Of a stretch of DNA of 64,000 nt, positions 21,732 through 41,497 are shown piece after piece. This DNA is from Chloroflexota bacterium. Lineage in GTDB: Bacteria > Chloroflexota > Chloroflexia > Chloroflexales > Roseiflexaceae. A program made the translations under genes and the position numbers. The DNA is taken from NCBI GenBank assembly GCA_013388755.1, contig JACAEQ010000094.1, forward strand, positions 1 to 64,000. The letters are read 5' to 3'. Within the stretch, counting starts at the first letter, position 1. Each line of letters starts with the position of its first letter. The notes beneath the pieces are model-generated. The model saw nothing but the letters and a program-made list of their open reading frames with translations, ran no database searches and was not told the DNA's origin.

Positions 21732-21753
21732 CAGCGGTTGCCGGGGTGGGCGC

Positions 21754-21782
21754 TTGACAGCCCGTGGCGTCGCGGGTATAGT
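21754..21782 (+). promoter_or_regulatory. Promoter of the threonine operon
   Basis: TTGACA (21754-21759), a 17-bp spacer and TATAGT (21777-21782): a near-consensus sigma-70 promoter. The predicted transcript start near 21789 leaves a leader of about 190 bases that holds the leader peptide and attenuator. Confidence 0.8.
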
Positions 21783-21819
21783 AGCGGCGCAGTGAGTGCT
21801 GCACACGTGGACAACGACC

Positions 21820-21912
21820 ATGCGCCTGCTGGATAACAACACGGCGACCACGACCATGACCTCGGTCACGACTACCGGGGAGCATGGTTGTGGGAGGGTC
21901 TCCCGGCGCTGA
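21820..21912 (+). CDS. Threonine-operon leader peptide
   Basis: A 30-codon frame reading MRLLDNNTATTTMTSVTTTG followed by a ten-residue tail and TGA. Eight of its codons are threonine (ACG, ACC, ACG, ACC, ACC, ACG, ACT, ACC), seven of them within eleven codons (21850-21876 region). No isoleucine codon is present, so the sensor would respond to threonyl-tRNA alone. It lies between a strong promoter and a hairpin terminator in front of thrC, exactly where a classic attenuation leader is expected. The ribosome site is weak (GTGGA). Confidence 0.78.
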   Translation: MRLLDNNTATTTMTSVTTTGEHGCGRVSRR

Positions 21913-21960
21913 TGGCCGGAACGCGATGATTGCCCCCTCCCGAAAGGGACGGGGGCTTTT
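21892..21960 (+). promoter_or_regulatory. Transcription attenuator of the thrC-lysC-asd operon
   Basis: The terminator hairpin is GCCCCCTCCC (21932-21941), loop GAAA, GGGA, a bulged C, then GGGGGC (21951-21956), followed by TTTT. The segment GGGAGGG at 21892-21898, inside the end of the leader peptide frame, is complementary to CCCTCCC (21935-21941) and can form an antiterminator. A ribosome stalled on the Thr codons leaves 21892-21898 free. One that reaches the stop codon covers it and lets the terminator form. A small hairpin GGGAG/CTCCC (21878-21882 with 21900-21904) and CCGGC/GCCGG (21904-21920) offer further alternatives. Confidence 0.75.
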
Positions 21961-21978
21961 CCGTTTCAGGGAGGTGCT

Positions 21979-23019
21979 ATGCTGTTCGATCGTTACCGCG
22001 CGTTCCTGCCGCTCAGCGAGCATACGCCGGCGTTGACCCTCGGCGAAGGTGACACGCCGCTGGTCGCTGCGCCGCGCCTGGCAAGCGCCATCGGCGTGCG
22101 TGAGCTGTTCCTGAAGTATGAGGGTGCCAATCCTACCGGCTCGTTCAAAGATCGCGGTATGGTTGTAGCGGTCGCCAAGGCGATGGAAGCCGGCGCAACG
22201 TCGGTCATTTGCGCTTCAACCGGCAATACATCGGCCAGTGCGGCGGCCTATGCGGCGCATGCCGGCATCGAGTCGATCGTTGTGGTGCCGGCCGGCAAGA
22301 TCGCGCTTGGCAAACTGGCGCAGGCGCTCATGTATGGCGCGCGATTGCTGGTGATTGACGGGAACTTCGACGCGGCGCTCCATATCGTGCGTGAATTGTC
22401 GGATGAGTTCCCGGTCACGCTGGTGAATTCGGTCAACCCGCATCGCCTGGAAGGGCAGGCGACCGCCGCGTATGAAATTTGCGACACGCTTGGCGGCCCA
22501 CCTGATGCGCTCTGCTTGCCGGTAGGCAATGCCGGCAATATTACTGCCTACTGGCTTGGCTTTCGTCGCTACCACGAAGCCGGCAGGATTGACCGGCTAC
22601 CGAAGATGCTCGGTTTTCAGGCCGCCGGCGCTGCGCCGATTGTGCTCGGCCACCCCGTCGAACACCCGGAAACCATTGCGACCGCGATTCGTATTGGTAA
22701 CCCGGCAAGCTGGTGCTATGCGCTCGATGCGCGCGATCAATCGGGCGGGTTGATCGAGATGGTCACCGATGAGCAGATCCTGCAGAGCTGGCGCGATCTG
22801 GCGCGACTGGAAGGGGTCTTCGTCGAACCAGCCTCGGCAGCCGGCGTCGCCGGCCTGCGTATGCTGGCGAGCCAGGGTCGCGCCGAACCGGATGCGCGCT
22901 ATGTGGCAGTGCTCACCGGCCACGGCCTGAAGGATCCCGGCCTGGCGGTTGAGCAGTTCGCAGCACCAGCGCCGGTCAAGGCGGAGATGAGCGCCATTCT
23001 CGGCTGGCTTGGATGGTGA
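21979..23019 (+). CDS. thrC: Threonine synthase
   Basis: 346-residue PLP enzyme that converts O-phosphohomoserine to threonine. The PLP lysine is Lys57 in NPTGSFKDRG. The phosphate-binding loop region is CASTGNTSASAAAYAAHAG near residue 78, and PVGNAGNITAYW near residue 176 is a threonine-synthase hallmark. The length matches the short bacterial/archaeal form. ATG 21979 follows GGGAGG by 6 bases. It is the first structural gene behind the Thr leader and attenuator, and aspartokinase and aspartate-semialdehyde dehydrogenase follow. Homoserine dehydrogenase and kinase are not in the window. Confidence 0.95.
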   Translation: MLFDRYRAFLPLSEHTPALTLGEGDTPLVAAPRLASAIGVRELFLKYEGANPTGSFKDRGMVVAVAKAMEAGATSVICASTGNTSASAAAYAAHAGIESIVVVPAGKIALGKLAQALMYGARLLVIDGNFDAALHIVRELSDEFPVTLVNSVNPHRLEGQATAAYEICDTLGGPPDALCLPVGNAGNITAYWLGFRRYHEAGRIDRLPKMLGFQAAGAAPIVLGHPVEHPETIATAIRIGNPASWCYALDARDQSGGLIEMVTDEQILQSWRDLARLEGVFVEPASAAGVAGLRMLASQGRAEPDARYVAVLTGHGLKDPGLAVEQFAAPAPVKAEMSAILGWLGW

Positions 23020-23034: not shown

Positions 23035-24441
23035 ATGCCTCTCCTCGTGATGAAATTTGGCGGCACGTCGGTCGGCGGCACGGCGGCGATTCAGGCGGTA
23101 GCCGCGATCACTGAAGCGCAACGTGCAATCTGGGGGCGCGTGGTGCTTGTGGTCTCGGCGATGAGTGGTGTGACCGATATGCTGATCCGCGGCGCGACCA
23201 CCGCTGCAACTGGTGATCAGCGAACCTTTCGCGACCTGGAGCATGCCCTGCGTGAGAAACACGCAACGGTCCTGGCCGGGCTCGTGCCCGATGGCGATGA
23301 GCGCGCGGCGGTTGGCGCCCAGGTCATGCAATTGATCGACGAGTTCGGCGTGCTCTGCCACAGTGTGGCAGTGCTCGGCGAGGCGTCGCCGCGCGCGCAC
23401 GACGCAATCTCCAGCCTTGGTGAGCGCATGAGTGCGCGGATCGTTGCTGCGGCATTGCGGGCGCGCGGTATTCCCGCCGAAGCGCTTGATGCGACCGAGT
23501 TCGTCGTTACAACGCCGCATTTTGGCGATGCGCGCCCGGTGCAAGATCTCACGCGCGATCGTACCCGTGCTCGCCTGCTGCCGCTGCTCGATCAAGGGGT
23601 CGTTCCGGTGGTCACCGGGTTCATCGGCGCAACCGAAAGTGGCGCGACAACGACGCTCGGTCGCGGCGGTAGCGACTATAGCGGTGCGATTGTCGGCGCG
23701 GCGCTCGATGCCGATGAGGTCGCGATCTACACCGACGTTGATGGCGTGATGACCACTGATCCGCGCCTGGCTCCCGATGCGCGTGTCATTCCGGTACTGT
23801 CCTATTCCGAAATGGGTGAACTGGCCTATTTCGGCGCCAAGGTACTGCACCCGCGCACGATTCGCCCGGTGGTCGAACGAGGCACACCGTTACGCATTCG
23901 TAATACGTTCAACCCGTCGCATCCCGGTACACTGGTGGTGCGCGACGTGGAGGCGAACGGCCAGGCAGTGAAGGCGGTGACGGCCATACGCGCGATGAGT
24001 CTGGTGACGGTCGAAGGGCGCGGCATGATCGGCGTGCCTGGCGTGGCGGCGCGCACGTTCGGCGCGGTTGCAAGTGCCGGCGCGAACGTCCTCATGATCT
24101 CGCAGGCTTCGTCGGAACAGAGTATCTGCTTTGTTGTGCCGTCCAGCACGGTGCCGGAGGTAACGCACGCGCTGGAGCAGGGCCTGGCAGCTGAACTGGC
24201 GCGGCGCGACATTGATCGTATCTGGGCGCGCGAAGAGGTCGCGATTGTGACCGCCGTCGGAGCGGGAATGCGCGATACGCCGGGTGTGGCGGCGCAGGTA
24301 TTCGGTGTTCTGGCAGCCCACCATATTAATGTCATCGCCATCGCGCAGGGGTCGTCGGAGTGTGCCATCAGTATCGTGGTGGCGGCGTCTGAATGCGATG
24401 AGTCGGTGCGCGCCATTCATGGGTTGACGGCGGGACTGTGA
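23035..24441 (+). CDS. lysC: Aspartate kinase
   Basis: 468-residue aspartokinase that phosphorylates aspartate, the first step to Lys, Thr, Met and diaminopimelate. KFGGTSVG at residues 5-12 binds ATP. The TTLGRGGSDYSGAIVGAAL region near residue 205 and FGAKVLHPRTIRP near residue 263 are typical. Two ACT domains (about residues 315-465) end the protein, so feedback inhibition by an amino acid is expected; the leader suggests threonine. It starts 15 bp after thrC. There is no fused homoserine dehydrogenase. The symbol lysC is the generic name. Confidence 0.95.
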   Translation: MPLLVMKFGGTSVGGTAAIQAVAAITEAQRAIWGRVVLVVSAMSGVTDMLIRGATTAATGDQRTFRDLEHALREKHATVLAGLVPDGDERAAVGAQVMQLIDEFGVLCHSVAVLGEASPRAHDAISSLGERMSARIVAAALRARGIPAEALDATEFVVTTPHFGDARPVQDLTRDRTRARLLPLLDQGVVPVVTGFIGATESGATTTLGRGGSDYSGAIVGAALDADEVAIYTDVDGVMTTDPRLAPDARVIPVLSYSEMGELAYFGAKVLHPRTIRPVVERGTPLRIRNTFNPSHPGTLVVRDVEANGQAVKAVTAIRAMSLVTVEGRGMIGVPGVAARTFGAVASAGANVLMISQASSEQSICFVVPSSTVPEVTHALEQGLAAELARRDIDRIWAREEVAIVTAVGAGMRDTPGVAAQVFGVLAAHHINVIAIAQGSSECAISIVVAASECDESVRAIHGLTAGL

Positions 24442-24467
24442 ATTGAGTATTGAGAAAAGGAGATGCT

Positions 24468-25526
24468 ATGGCTCAGAGACGTCTGCCAGTCGCCATTCTC
24501 GGCGCGACGGGCGCCGTTGGCCAGCGGATGGTGCAATTGCTGGCCAGCCATCCATGGTTTGAAGTCGCGGTGCTTACCGGCTCGGATCGCACGATTGGCA
24601 AGCCGTATGGTGAGCTGGTGCGCTGGATCCTCGATACCCCCATCCCGGAGCGCGTGGCGCGTATGGTCGTCCAGCCGACCGAAGATGTCGCTGATGTAGC
24701 GATTGCGCTGTCGGCGCTACCGACGGACGTGGCGCGCGAGGCTGAGCCGCTCTGGGCCGCGCGAACCGCCGTCTGCTCGAATGCCTCGGCGTACCGGGCC
24801 GTCGCCGATGTGCCGCTGCTCATCCCTGAAGTCAACCCCGGCCACCTGGCGATGCTGGATCGCCAGCGCGCCGAGCGTGGCTGGAAGGGGTGCCTGGTCA
24901 CCAACCCGAACTGTGCCACGATCAGCGCGGTGATGCCGCTCAAGCCGTTGCATGATGCATTTGGTCTGCAAAAAGCGCATATCAGCACACTGCAGGCCGT
25001 TTCCGGCGCCGGCTACCCGGGTGTCGCATCGCTTGATATTCTTGACAATATCATCCCCAATATTGCGGATGGTGGCGAAGAGTCGAAGATCGAGGCCGAG
25101 CCGCGCAAATTGCTGGGACGGATCGAGGATGGCCGGGTGATCGAAGCGCCGTTGACGATCAGCGCGCAGGTGACGCGTGTGCCGATCATTGATGGCCATA
25201 CGGCGCTGATTGCAGCCTCGTTCGCGCAGCGGCCATCGCCGGAGGAGGCCATTGCCGTGCTGGAGACATATGCGCCGCCTGAGATTGTTCGCAGCCTGCC
25301 GAGCTCGCCGGAACGCGCCCTGATCGTTCACCGCGCCGGCGACCGCCCACAACCGCGGCGTGACCGCGATGCCGGGCGCGGCATGAGCGCCAGCGTCGGG
25401 CGCGTGCGCGCCTGCCCGGTGCTGGATCTGCGCCTGGTTGCGCTGTCGCACAATACGATCCGCGGCGCCGCCGGCGGGGCGATCCTCAATGCGGAGTTGC
25501 TGGTGGCATCCGGTGTCGTATCATAG
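24468..25526 (+). CDS. asd: Aspartate-semialdehyde dehydrogenase
   Basis: 352-residue NADP enzyme that reduces aspartyl phosphate to aspartate semialdehyde. The NADP loop is LGATGAVGQR at residues 11-20. The nucleophile is Cys149 in TNPNCATIS. SGAGYPGV and the DGHTALI histidine complete the site. The motif LIPEVNPGHL near residue 118 marks the archaeal/fungal-type branch rather than the E. coli type. ATG 24468 is preceded by AGGAG with 7 bases spacing. Its 3' end overlaps the convergent murJ gene by 41 bp. Confidence 0.95.
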   Translation: MAQRRLPVAILGATGAVGQRMVQLLASHPWFEVAVLTGSDRTIGKPYGELVRWILDTPIPERVARMVVQPTEDVADVAIALSALPTDVAREAEPLWAARTAVCSNASAYRAVADVPLLIPEVNPGHLAMLDRQRAERGWKGCLVTNPNCATISAVMPLKPLHDAFGLQKAHISTLQAVSGAGYPGVASLDILDNIIPNIADGGEESKIEAEPRKLLGRIEDGRVIEAPLTISAQVTRVPIIDGHTALIAASFAQRPSPEEAIAVLETYAPPEIVRSLPSSPERALIVHRAGDRPQPRRDRDAGRGMSASVGRVRACPVLDLRLVALSHNTIRGAAGGAILNAELLVASGVVS

Positions 25527-38660: not shown

Positions 38661-39440
38661 ATGAGCGACTACGATGCCGTTGCCCGTTACTACGACGCCG
38701 ATCATAGCGATTTTGCCGATGATCTGCCGTTCTATCGCGAACTGGCGCGGCGAACAGGTGGGCGTGTGCTCGAGGCGATGTGCGGGAGCGGGCGTTTGCT
38801 TGTTCCGCTGGCTGAAGCGGGGTTCCGCCTGACTGGTATCGACTCCTCGCCGATGATGATTGAGCGGGCACGGTCACGCATCGCGGCAGCCGGCCTTGGC
38901 GAGCGGATCGCGCTGCACTATGGTGACGTCCGGCGCGAGATACCTCCTGGCCGGCATCGCCTTGCGATTGTGGCGCTGAACAGTTTCATGCACCTGACCT
39001 CAGTTGCGGATCAACTGGCTGCGCTTGAGCGCATCCATCGCGCGCTGGAACCGGATGGCCTGCTGGCGATTGATGTGTTCAACCCCCACGCGCGCTCCCT
39101 TGCCGACTCTCATGGCGAACTGGCGCTTGATCGTACGTTCCGTCTCGAAGATGGCACGCGGGTTCAGAAGTTTGTGGCCCAGCGCGCCAACCTCGCCGAG
39201 CAGCTCAACCACGTCACCTTCATCTATGATGAAATTGACGGCGCGGATCAGGTTCACCGCACCACGCAGTGTATGATACTGCGCTGGTTCTATCGCTATG
39301 AGATCGAGCATTTGATGGAACGAGCCGGATTTGCGGTTGAGGCGATCTATGGCTCGTATGACCTTGACCCTTTTCGCGGCGACAGCGATATTATGCTGAC
39401 GGTGGCACAGCGCCGGTTACGGCGCCGGCATAGACTGTAG
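38661..39440 (+). CDS. SAM-dependent methyltransferase
   Basis: 259-residue class I methyltransferase. Motif I is [19 protein letters not shown] near residue 36 and the acidic residue of motif II is in [15 protein letters not shown]. The motif IV region is [15 protein letters not shown] near residue 96. LRRIHR-like [22 protein letters not shown] follows. The fold is clear but the methyl acceptor is unknown. No ribosome site is evident, consistent with tight coupling to the preceding gene. The last 50 bp overlap the 3' end of the convergent proS gene. Confidence 0.85.
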
Positions 39441-41139
39441 TAATGATCTCCTCGCGCCGAACCTTGACGGCGGCTGCGGAGGCGCGCGACTTCAGTTCCA
39501 CCATCCCTTCAGCAAGAAGCCGATCACCAATGACCAGTCGTAACGGTAGACCGATCAAGTCGGCGTCATTGAACTTGACCCCGGCGGTCTCGTCGCGATC
39601 ATCGTACAGCACGGAGATACCGGCGGCGCGTAGTTCCTCGTAGAGCGCGTCGGCGGCGATGCGCGTGGCGTCCTGCTTGCCGAGCCGCACCAGGTACACC
39701 TGCAGCGGCGCGACTGCCGCCGGCCAGACGATCCCGGCAGCATCGCAGTGTTGTTCAACGATTACCTGCAGCAGGCGTTCGATACCAATGCCATACGATC
39801 CCATGACAATCGGGCGCATGCTTCCGCTCTGGTCGAGATAGGTTGCGCCGATGGCCTCAGCATAGCGTGTACCGAGCTTGAAGATATGCCCGATCTCGAT
39901 GCCTGCCGCGTGCCGGAGTGGCGCGCCACAGCGGGCACACGGCTCTCCCGGCTGCGCCAGGCCAATGTCGGCGACGACCGTCGCCTGCCAGTCGCGGCCG
40001 TAAACAACATTGCGCAGATGGTAACCTGCCCGGTTTGCACCTGCGATGAGTGGCATGCCCGTGGTTACCGACGGATCGGCGACGACGTAGACACCGCCGG
40101 AGTCATACGGGCGTAACCCTACCGGCGAGGCATAACCGGGAACGGCGCCGGCAGCGACGATCTGTTCGGCGGTGGCGGGTACCGTGGTCGAGACGCCGGC
40201 CACGGCACGCAGTTTGTGCTCATTGACGTCGCGATCACCGCGGATGACGGCGAAGATCAGGCCGCGCTCGGGCGTATCAAAGAACACCGCCTTGGCCGTC
40301 GCCGTCTGCGGCACGCCAAAGAAACGCGCCAGGTCGGCGATCGTTGCGCAGCCTGGAGTAGCCACCTCTTCCGGATGGTCCGGTTCTTCGGCGGGAACGG
40401 CACCGGCAGCCTGGTTCGCTGTGGCGGCACATGCTACTTCCAGGTTGGCAGCGTAGCCGCAGGCATCACAGATGGCGAGGGTGTCTTCGCCGGCCTGCGA
40501 GATTGCCATGTACTCGCGCGCCTCGCGCCCGCCCATCTCGCCGCCACTCGCTTCGACCGCGACAGAGCGGACGCCGCAGCGCGTAAAGATGCGCTCGAAA
40601 GCTGTGCCGACACGCGCATACGCTTCATCAAGCCCGGCGCTATCACCGTCCAGTGAATAGGCATCCAGCATCGTGAACTCACGCAGACGCATCAGGCCAC
40701 CGCGTGGCCGGAGTTCATCGCGATACTTGGTGTGCACCTGGTAGACCAGCGCCGGCAACTGGCGATAGGATGCGATCTCGCCGGCGGCCAGGCCTGCAAT
40801 CGCCTCCTCATGCGTTGGTGCAACGATCAGGGCGCGGCCGGCGCGGTCGGTCAGGCGCAGCATTTGCGGGCCGTATGAGGCATAGCGGCCGGATTGCTCC
40901 CAGGGGGCGGCGGCCTGCACGACGGGTGTGCGGAGTTCCTGAGCGCCGAGACGCTCCATTTCTTCGTGGATGATGGCCTCGATACGTCGCATGGCGCGCA
41001 TGCCAAGCGGCAGCAGCGCAAAGCTCCCGGCGTGCATCGCGCGTGCCAGGCCGGCGCGCAGCAGGAGACGGTGCGCAATGGATTCGGCATCGGCCGGTGC
41101 CTCGCGCAGCGTGCGGCCAAACAGGGTCGAAAGTCGCAT
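39391..41139 (-). CDS. proS: Prolyl-tRNA synthetase (bacterial type)
   Basis: 582-residue class II aminoacyl-tRNA synthetase that charges tRNA-Pro. It has class II motifs 1-3 ([15 protein letters not shown], then [17 protein letters not shown] in motif 2, and [11 protein letters not shown] in motif 3). An inserted editing (INS/YbaK-like) domain occupies about residues 225-385, and a C-terminal anticodon-binding domain includes [16 protein letters not shown]. This is the bacterial, not the eukaryote-like, form. ATG 41139 is chosen; the longer frame runs into the leader terminator. Expression should be controlled by the T-box just upstream. The end overlaps the methyltransferase gene by 50 bp. 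Confidence 0.96.
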
Positions 41140-41175
41140 GGTTTTGATGTCCTTCCCCGGCAATCGATTGCCAAC

Positions 41176-41497
41176 AAAAAACGCCCCTGAGCATATGCTC
41201 AGGGACGGATCACTGAATCCGCGGTACCACCCCGGTTGGCGCACGATGCGCCCCACTCTCCCGCCGCAGCTCACCTGGTGAGCAACGACGCGCCCGGGTA
41301 ACGGTGGGCCACCGGCCAGTCTTAGGCGCCGCAGCGACGGCGATTGCGACGGCGATTGGCATCACACGCAGTCGTGCGGTGGTGACGCCCGGCGCAGGGG
41401 GTTCAGCGCATGTCTTCCGGTCGAGCTCCCACCATCCTCGACTCGCTGATGTCCAACACGGTGCCTACTCGTCTGCGCACATCATTCAACTATTGTG
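41176..41497 (-). promoter_or_regulatory. T-box riboswitch for proline
   Basis: On the minus strand the T-box core GGTGGTACCGCGG lies at 41231-41219. It is followed by a terminator with a 10-bp stem CCCTGAGCAT/ATGCTCAGGG (41204-41185) and a run of T (41181-41176). The upstream Stem I has AGTA near 41468 and GAA at 41404-41402, the two halves of a specifier-loop S-turn. CCC follows at 41400-41398, a proline codon in the expected specifier position. Uncharged tRNA-Pro would stabilise the antiterminator and allow proS transcription. Confidence 0.85.

Follow-up and report, generated by a model that had tools for sequence, protein, structure and literature searches.

Most leader-peptide attenuators of amino-acid operons have been described from Proteobacteria and Actinobacteria; a few cases come from Firmicutes. 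In 2010, leader-peptide systems were known only in the first two groups, to which hisS of the Firmicutes was added (PMC2965389). According to a 2013 study with five Chloroflexi genomes, the attenuator motifs of Rfam may stem from gamma-proteobacteria (PMC3766115). The thrLABC attenuator of E. coli (Rfam family RF00506) combines a Thr-rich short ORF with alternative 1:2, 2:3 and 3:4 pairings and a terminator before genes of the threonine pathway. The His-leader attenuators of Firmicutes, which were found by comparative genomics, are leader-peptide systems outside Proteobacteria in bacteria that use T-boxes (PMC2965389, PMC9413887).

We analysed a stretch of 64,000 nucleotides from a Chloroflexota bacterium (contig JACAEQ010000094.1), called the window in the following, in which the genes thrC-lysC-asd are preceded by a leader region of similar design. 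It shares with E. coli thrLABC the elements listed above and the same kind of ribosome-position profile. Unlike the E. coli system, it carries the segment GGGAGGG within the leader ORF, possesses no Ile codons, precedes thrC-lysC-asd instead of thrABC, belongs to another phylum and shows no match by sequence or Rfam model. The Firmicutes His-leaders differ from it by their histidine codons, their genes and their phylum. We concluded with a probability of roughly 0.87 that thrC-lysC-asd is under the control of a classical ribosome-mediated transcription attenuator sensing charged threonyl-tRNA. This kind of device is already known. As the initial annotation of the sequence had supposed, no described case of a Thr attenuator in Chloroflexota was found in the open-access literature, to which the search was confined; an earlier prediction for Roseiflexus may exist.

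Leader region and threonine codons

The locus comprises the following features.

21754-21782, + strand: sigma-70-type promoter (TTGACA-17 bp-TATAGT), consensus at 11/12 positions
21754-21759 and 21777-21782, + strand: -35 hexamer TTGACA and -10 hexamer TATAGT of this promoter, with a 17-bp spacer
near 21789, + strand: transcript start as predicted from the promoter position
21820-21912, + strand: leader peptide ORF of 30 codons with 8 Thr (MRLLDNNTATTTMTSVTTTGEHGCGRVSRR*); Thr-rich orthologue in 16/16 Roseiflexaceae thrC loci
21841-21876, + strand: run with the eight putative regulatory Thr codons (ACG/ACC/ACT); Thr mostly kept, synonymous third positions variable
21848-21893, + strand: 1:2 hairpin of the MFE fold, in which Thr codons (21848-21858) pair with CATGGTTGTGG (21883-21893)
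21860-21866 with 21874-21880, + strand: inner helix of the 1:2 hairpin
21892-21898, + strand: candidate antiterminator strand GGGAGGG (region 2), within the leader ORF, 12-18 nt 5' of its stop codon
21910-21912, + strand: stop codon of the leader
21932-21960, + strand: predicted intrinsic terminator GCCCCCTCCC-GAAA-GGGACGGGGGC followed by TTTT (regions 3:4), about -21.8 kcal/mol; the hairpin itself occupies 21932-21956
21935-21941, + strand: CCCTCCC in the 5' arm of the terminator (region 3), complementary to GGGAGGG at 21892-21898
21970-21974, + strand: Shine-Dalgarno sequence GGAGG of thrC, assigned by sequence
21979-23019, + strand: thrC, threonine synthase (NCBIfam TIGR00260, 313.9 bits, cut-off 167.1)
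23035-24441, + strand: lysC, aspartate kinase with ACT domains; immediately follows thrC in all Roseiflexaceae loci examined
24465-25526, + strand: asd, aspartate-semialdehyde dehydrogenase (TIGR00978, 392 bits, cut-off 301.2)

Profile matches bore out the identities that the initial annotation had assigned to thrC, lysC and asd, an operon which makes threonine and its precursors. The 30-codon leader with eight Thr codons was likewise seen, and the consensus promoter described ahead of it proved to be near-consensus; its -35 hexamer is identical in all 16 loci of the family. The host had been correctly guessed to belong to the Chloroflexota, its family being Roseiflexaceae. Since the gene upstream is divergently oriented on the minus strand, the terminator cannot be the 3'-end of a neighbouring gene.

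The composition of the window leader, with Thr in 8/30 codons and no Ile, agrees with the earlier description of a Thr-only leader; single Ile codons occur in the leaders of a few relatives. An in-frame GTG at 21796 gives an alternative leader of 38 codons with 12 Thr. As this extension in its Thr-rich form is not common to the relatives, the ATG at 21820 was kept and marked as uncertain. A clear Shine-Dalgarno sequence ahead of this ATG is lacking, which was counted against attenuation. The predicted 5' UTR of the window leader measures approximately 31 nt. In the lineage g9 (L017-L023), the predicted transcript start practically coincides with the leader ATG (5' UTR of 0-1 nt), and the mRNA looks leaderless. 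In this respect the g9 Thr leaders resemble S. meliloti trpL (PMC7298713), an ORF without a 5' UTR, which in contrast contains Trp codons; the window leader is set apart from trpL by its predicted 5' UTR as well.

In the 16 Roseiflexaceae leaders, ACN triplets numbered 7-12 in frame 0 versus 0-3 in the other frames. The codons at Thr positions varied among ACA, ACC, ACG and ACT across relatives, as expected if the amino acid, not the RNA sequence, matters. Only eight comparably Thr-rich small ORFs were detected on both strands of 1.53 Mb of other sequence, one of which was E. coli thrL.

These in-frame codons with free third positions bear on the idea that a leader-independent RNA switch, i.e., a threonine riboswitch, a T-box or a protein-bound antiterminator, operates here and that the Thr-rich ORF is incidental. 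While T-boxes do serve other genes in genomes of the family, an RNA aptamer would not require such codons, the length of the leader does not suffice for a T-box, and no Rfam family, T-box and Thr_leader included, exceeded the threshold on it. Even at E-values up to 10, the Rfam scan of the leader disclosed no leader, riboswitch or T-box match besides the negative outcome at the gathering score. We regard an RNA switch as very unlikely.

Membership in two Rfam families was considered and rejected. Thr_leader RF00506 gave no covariance-model match at the gathering score nor at E-values up to 10, and the family has Thr plus Ile codons before thrA, whereas the window leader is devoid of Ile codons and precedes thrC. 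T-box RF00230 did not match within 21740-21990, though a similar search found a T-box at 41198-41484.

Alternative pairings and the position of the ribosome

The initial annotation had proposed that GGGAGGG pairs with the 5'-half of the terminator. The ability to pair was confirmed, but the segment does not follow the leader ORF as had been stated; it lies within it (codons 25-27). Absent from that annotation was a strong hairpin (21848-21893) between the Thr codons and a segment overlapping GGGAGGG. The fold of the leader had a z-score of -4.73, and 0/200 shuffles were as stable. This stability is due to the Thr-codon hairpin, whose partner strand is situated just before GGGAGGG and overlaps it.

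For the genus of the window and Roseiflexus (g1 and g7), seven leaders were compared. In them, the outer helix of the 1:2 hairpin was paired in 100% of cells, and 97.6% of cells were paired when the inner helix was included. Changes in this hairpin were one-sided only, none affecting both sides. The pairing of GGGAGGG with CCCTCCC was kept in all seven leaders. L010 contains GGAGGGG instead, which pairs in a shifted register. GGGAGGG occurs in g2 and g8 too, and all nine loci of g1, g2, g7 and g8 exhibit a G-rich segment able to pair with the terminator 5'-arm. Segments resembling GGTGAGGTGG with poorer pairing occur in g9, where L018-L020 and L023 have a weak antiterminator. As to the co-variation across relatives that had been suggested as a check, Thr codons and terminator were kept, and true two-sided covariation of the alternative pairings was scarce. 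This scarcity was counted against attenuation, as were the overlap of 1:2 and 2:3 by two bases only and the short U-tract (TTTTCC) in the window. Around the second Thr cluster of g9 (L017-L023), a hairpin with compensating changes was noticed by eye.

To model translation, a ribosome was set on each codon, the downstream RNA was folded up to a point before the terminator 3'-arm, and upstream pairing of region 3 was scored. In most of the 16 leaders, region 3 was mostly sequestered with the ribosome at the Thr codons and largely free with the ribosome at the stop codon. L013 and L018-L020 showed this release only weakly. The positive control, E. coli thrL, yielded the same profile. Because masking more RNA trivially lowers pairing, the part of the leader from the Thr run to the terminator was dinucleotide-shuffled, and the Thr-versus-stop contrast was set against that of the shuffles. 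In the window alone, GGGAGGG pairing was within chance (p ~0.13), while for seven representatives combined the contrast exceeded that of the shuffles (Fisher p ~1e-4). L014 and L017 each reached p ~0.01, and the E. coli thrL control p 0.002. No contrast signal was obtained with L011 and L013, and little with L019, whose predicted contrast was only 0.15.

Two other measures were discarded. The energy of the duplex between regions 2 and 3, calculated for single sequences, was mostly not significant against shuffles, because region 2 is G-rich in any order. Equilibrium folding was uninformative as a predictor of termination; apart from L014, the terminator prevailed for nearly all placements of the ribosome. 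Thus, any switch must act kinetically during transcription. Kinetic switching is usual for attenuators of this type.

According to the modelled geometry, GGGAGGG is masked by a ribosome that has reached the stop codon but not by one on the Thr codons. We infer the following course from transcription start and leader translation to stalling and regulatory outcome. RNA polymerase would start near 21789, and a ribosome would enter the leader ORF. With plentiful threonine, the ribosome would reach the stop codon and cover GGGAGGG, leaving region 3 free, so that the 3:4 terminator hairpin would end transcription. Under a shortage of threonyl-tRNA, stalling of the ribosome in the Thr run would block the 1:2 hairpin. 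GGGAGGG could then pair with CCCTCCC before the terminator 3'-arm is made, and this 2:3 pairing would allow transcription to continue into thrC-lysC-asd.

A translated and regulatory leader might also exert its control mainly at the level of translation or via coupling of ribosome and RNA polymerase. There is complementarity between region 3 (CCCCCTCCC) and the Shine-Dalgarno sequence GGGAGG preceding thrC, and GGGAGGG, itself Shine-Dalgarno-like, might make the ribosome pause close to the stop codon, to which its spacing is constant in g1 and g7. Yet a terminator hairpin with a T-run exists in every lineage though the distance to thrC varies between 42 and 113 nt, and g9 leaders lack GGGAGGG and show weaker thrC Shine-Dalgarno sequences. 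We deem this alternative unlikely and prefer transcription attenuation.

Conservation of the leader in the Roseiflexaceae

We searched for thrC in the family (26 genomes), the order (82 genomes), the phylum (400 sampled genomes) and further genome contigs. A promoter, a Thr-rich ORF and a terminator were present before thrC-lysC in 16/16 Roseiflexaceae loci with intact upstream DNA, which span five genus-level lineages (g1, g2, g7, g8 and g9). Each leader contained 7-12 Thr codons, and the terminator hairpin was kept throughout. Homologous leaders lacking both the Thr codons and the alternative pairing, by which the initial annotation had proposed to challenge its reading, did not turn up in the 16 loci.

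Outside this set, none of 161 other thrC loci (91 in a first and 70 in a second set, some possibly duplicated between the two collections) had a Thr-rich leader ORF by the criterion of six Thr in ten residues. A Thr leader was also missing before homoserine dehydrogenase (0/30 loci, none of which reached five Thr in ten residues), before the different thrC of Chloroflexaceae and in other Chloroflexota. A covariance model, for which 13 leaders were used, identified a single copy in each of 16 Roseiflexaceae genomes. Every copy stood before thrC, and three of the loci (L017, L019 and L023) were outside the training set. Elsewhere in the 82 genomes of the order, the model revealed neither second copies nor any other match above noise (best 24.5 bits).

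These results can be set against the assumption that the locus is not regulated at all and merely comprises a constitutive promoter, a leaky terminator-like hairpin and a Thr-rich ORF arisen by chance. Such a view would agree with the weak U-tract and with an alternative pairing that stays within chance in the window alone. It is at odds with a conservation of 16/16 in the family and zero elsewhere, and with the rarity of such ORFs in the background (~8 per 1.53 Mb), and we give it hardly any credence. The parts are present and conserved, they stand before a threonine operon, and the geometry is compatible. Taken together with their order and spacing, these conserved parts fit ribosome-mediated attenuation, as does an operon suited to control by threonine. 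The attenuation reading of the initial annotation is supported by these conserved parts and their geometry, from which we infer the regulation itself.

Other thrC loci were of different appearance. Chloroflexaceae-type genomes (order Chloroflexales, family f2, L176-L190) contain a more distant thrC (TIGR00260 ~210 bits versus 314 bits in Roseiflexaceae) without a Thr leader. Herpetosiphonaceae-type thrC-lysC loci (L110, L112, L113-L118) also have no Thr leader and keep a terminator-like hairpin near the predicted promoter, with the motif GGCGATGATGCCC(T/C)TTTCC...GGGAAGGGG. The GCGATGA part of this motif recurs ahead of the terminator in the window. GCGATGA was rejected as a genome-wide module, as its matches in the genomes searched were confined to thrC sites.

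T-boxes in the same genomes and origin of the proposed attenuator

The window's genome gave nine T-box matches at E-values up to 0.001. By comparison of coordinates, a T-box adjoins thrS in ten genomes of the family, that of the window included. Its specifier apparently reads ACC in four aligned sequences, as deduced from the position of the Pro codon CCC in the proS T-box. In the genome of the window, this element (L246, 491-719; G000:C33:5921-6149; 85.4 bits) has an apparent ACC (Thr) specifier and precedes a small membrane-protein-like gene, which is followed by thrS. The window itself harbors a T-box at 41198-41484 on the minus strand (45.7 bits, E 9e-9, below the Rfam gathering score), immediately upstream of the gene for a prolyl-tRNA synthetase (39391-41274, minus strand) and with CCC at the specifier position.

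The T-box of the thrS operon (RF00230) is also predicted to sense threonine supply; unlike the attenuator, it binds uncharged tRNA directly, without translation, and is an entirely different RNA. As the Thr attenuator and the ACC T-box occur in the same genomes, these bacteria probably monitor their supply of threonine with two devices that are unrelated to each other.

The Thr attenuator of the Roseiflexaceae probably arose independently, which appears likelier than transfer in view of the missing Thr_leader match, the lack of Ile codons in the window and the position of the antiterminator strand within the ORF. We lean, with some reserve, towards a wider picture in which Thr attenuation would have originated independently in this family, within a phylum in which T-boxes are otherwise the known RNA sensors of amino acids. 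Each genome would then possess two readouts of threonyl-tRNA: stalled ribosomes would govern thrC-lysC-asd, and the thrS operon would respond to tRNA that is bound directly. In one genus the mRNA of the leader peptide would also be leaderless. That a conserved Thr attenuator of unrelated make-up occurs in a deep phylum speaks for repeated evolution of the mechanism, and the same genomes allow a natural comparison of ribosome stalling with T-box sensing of the same tRNA.
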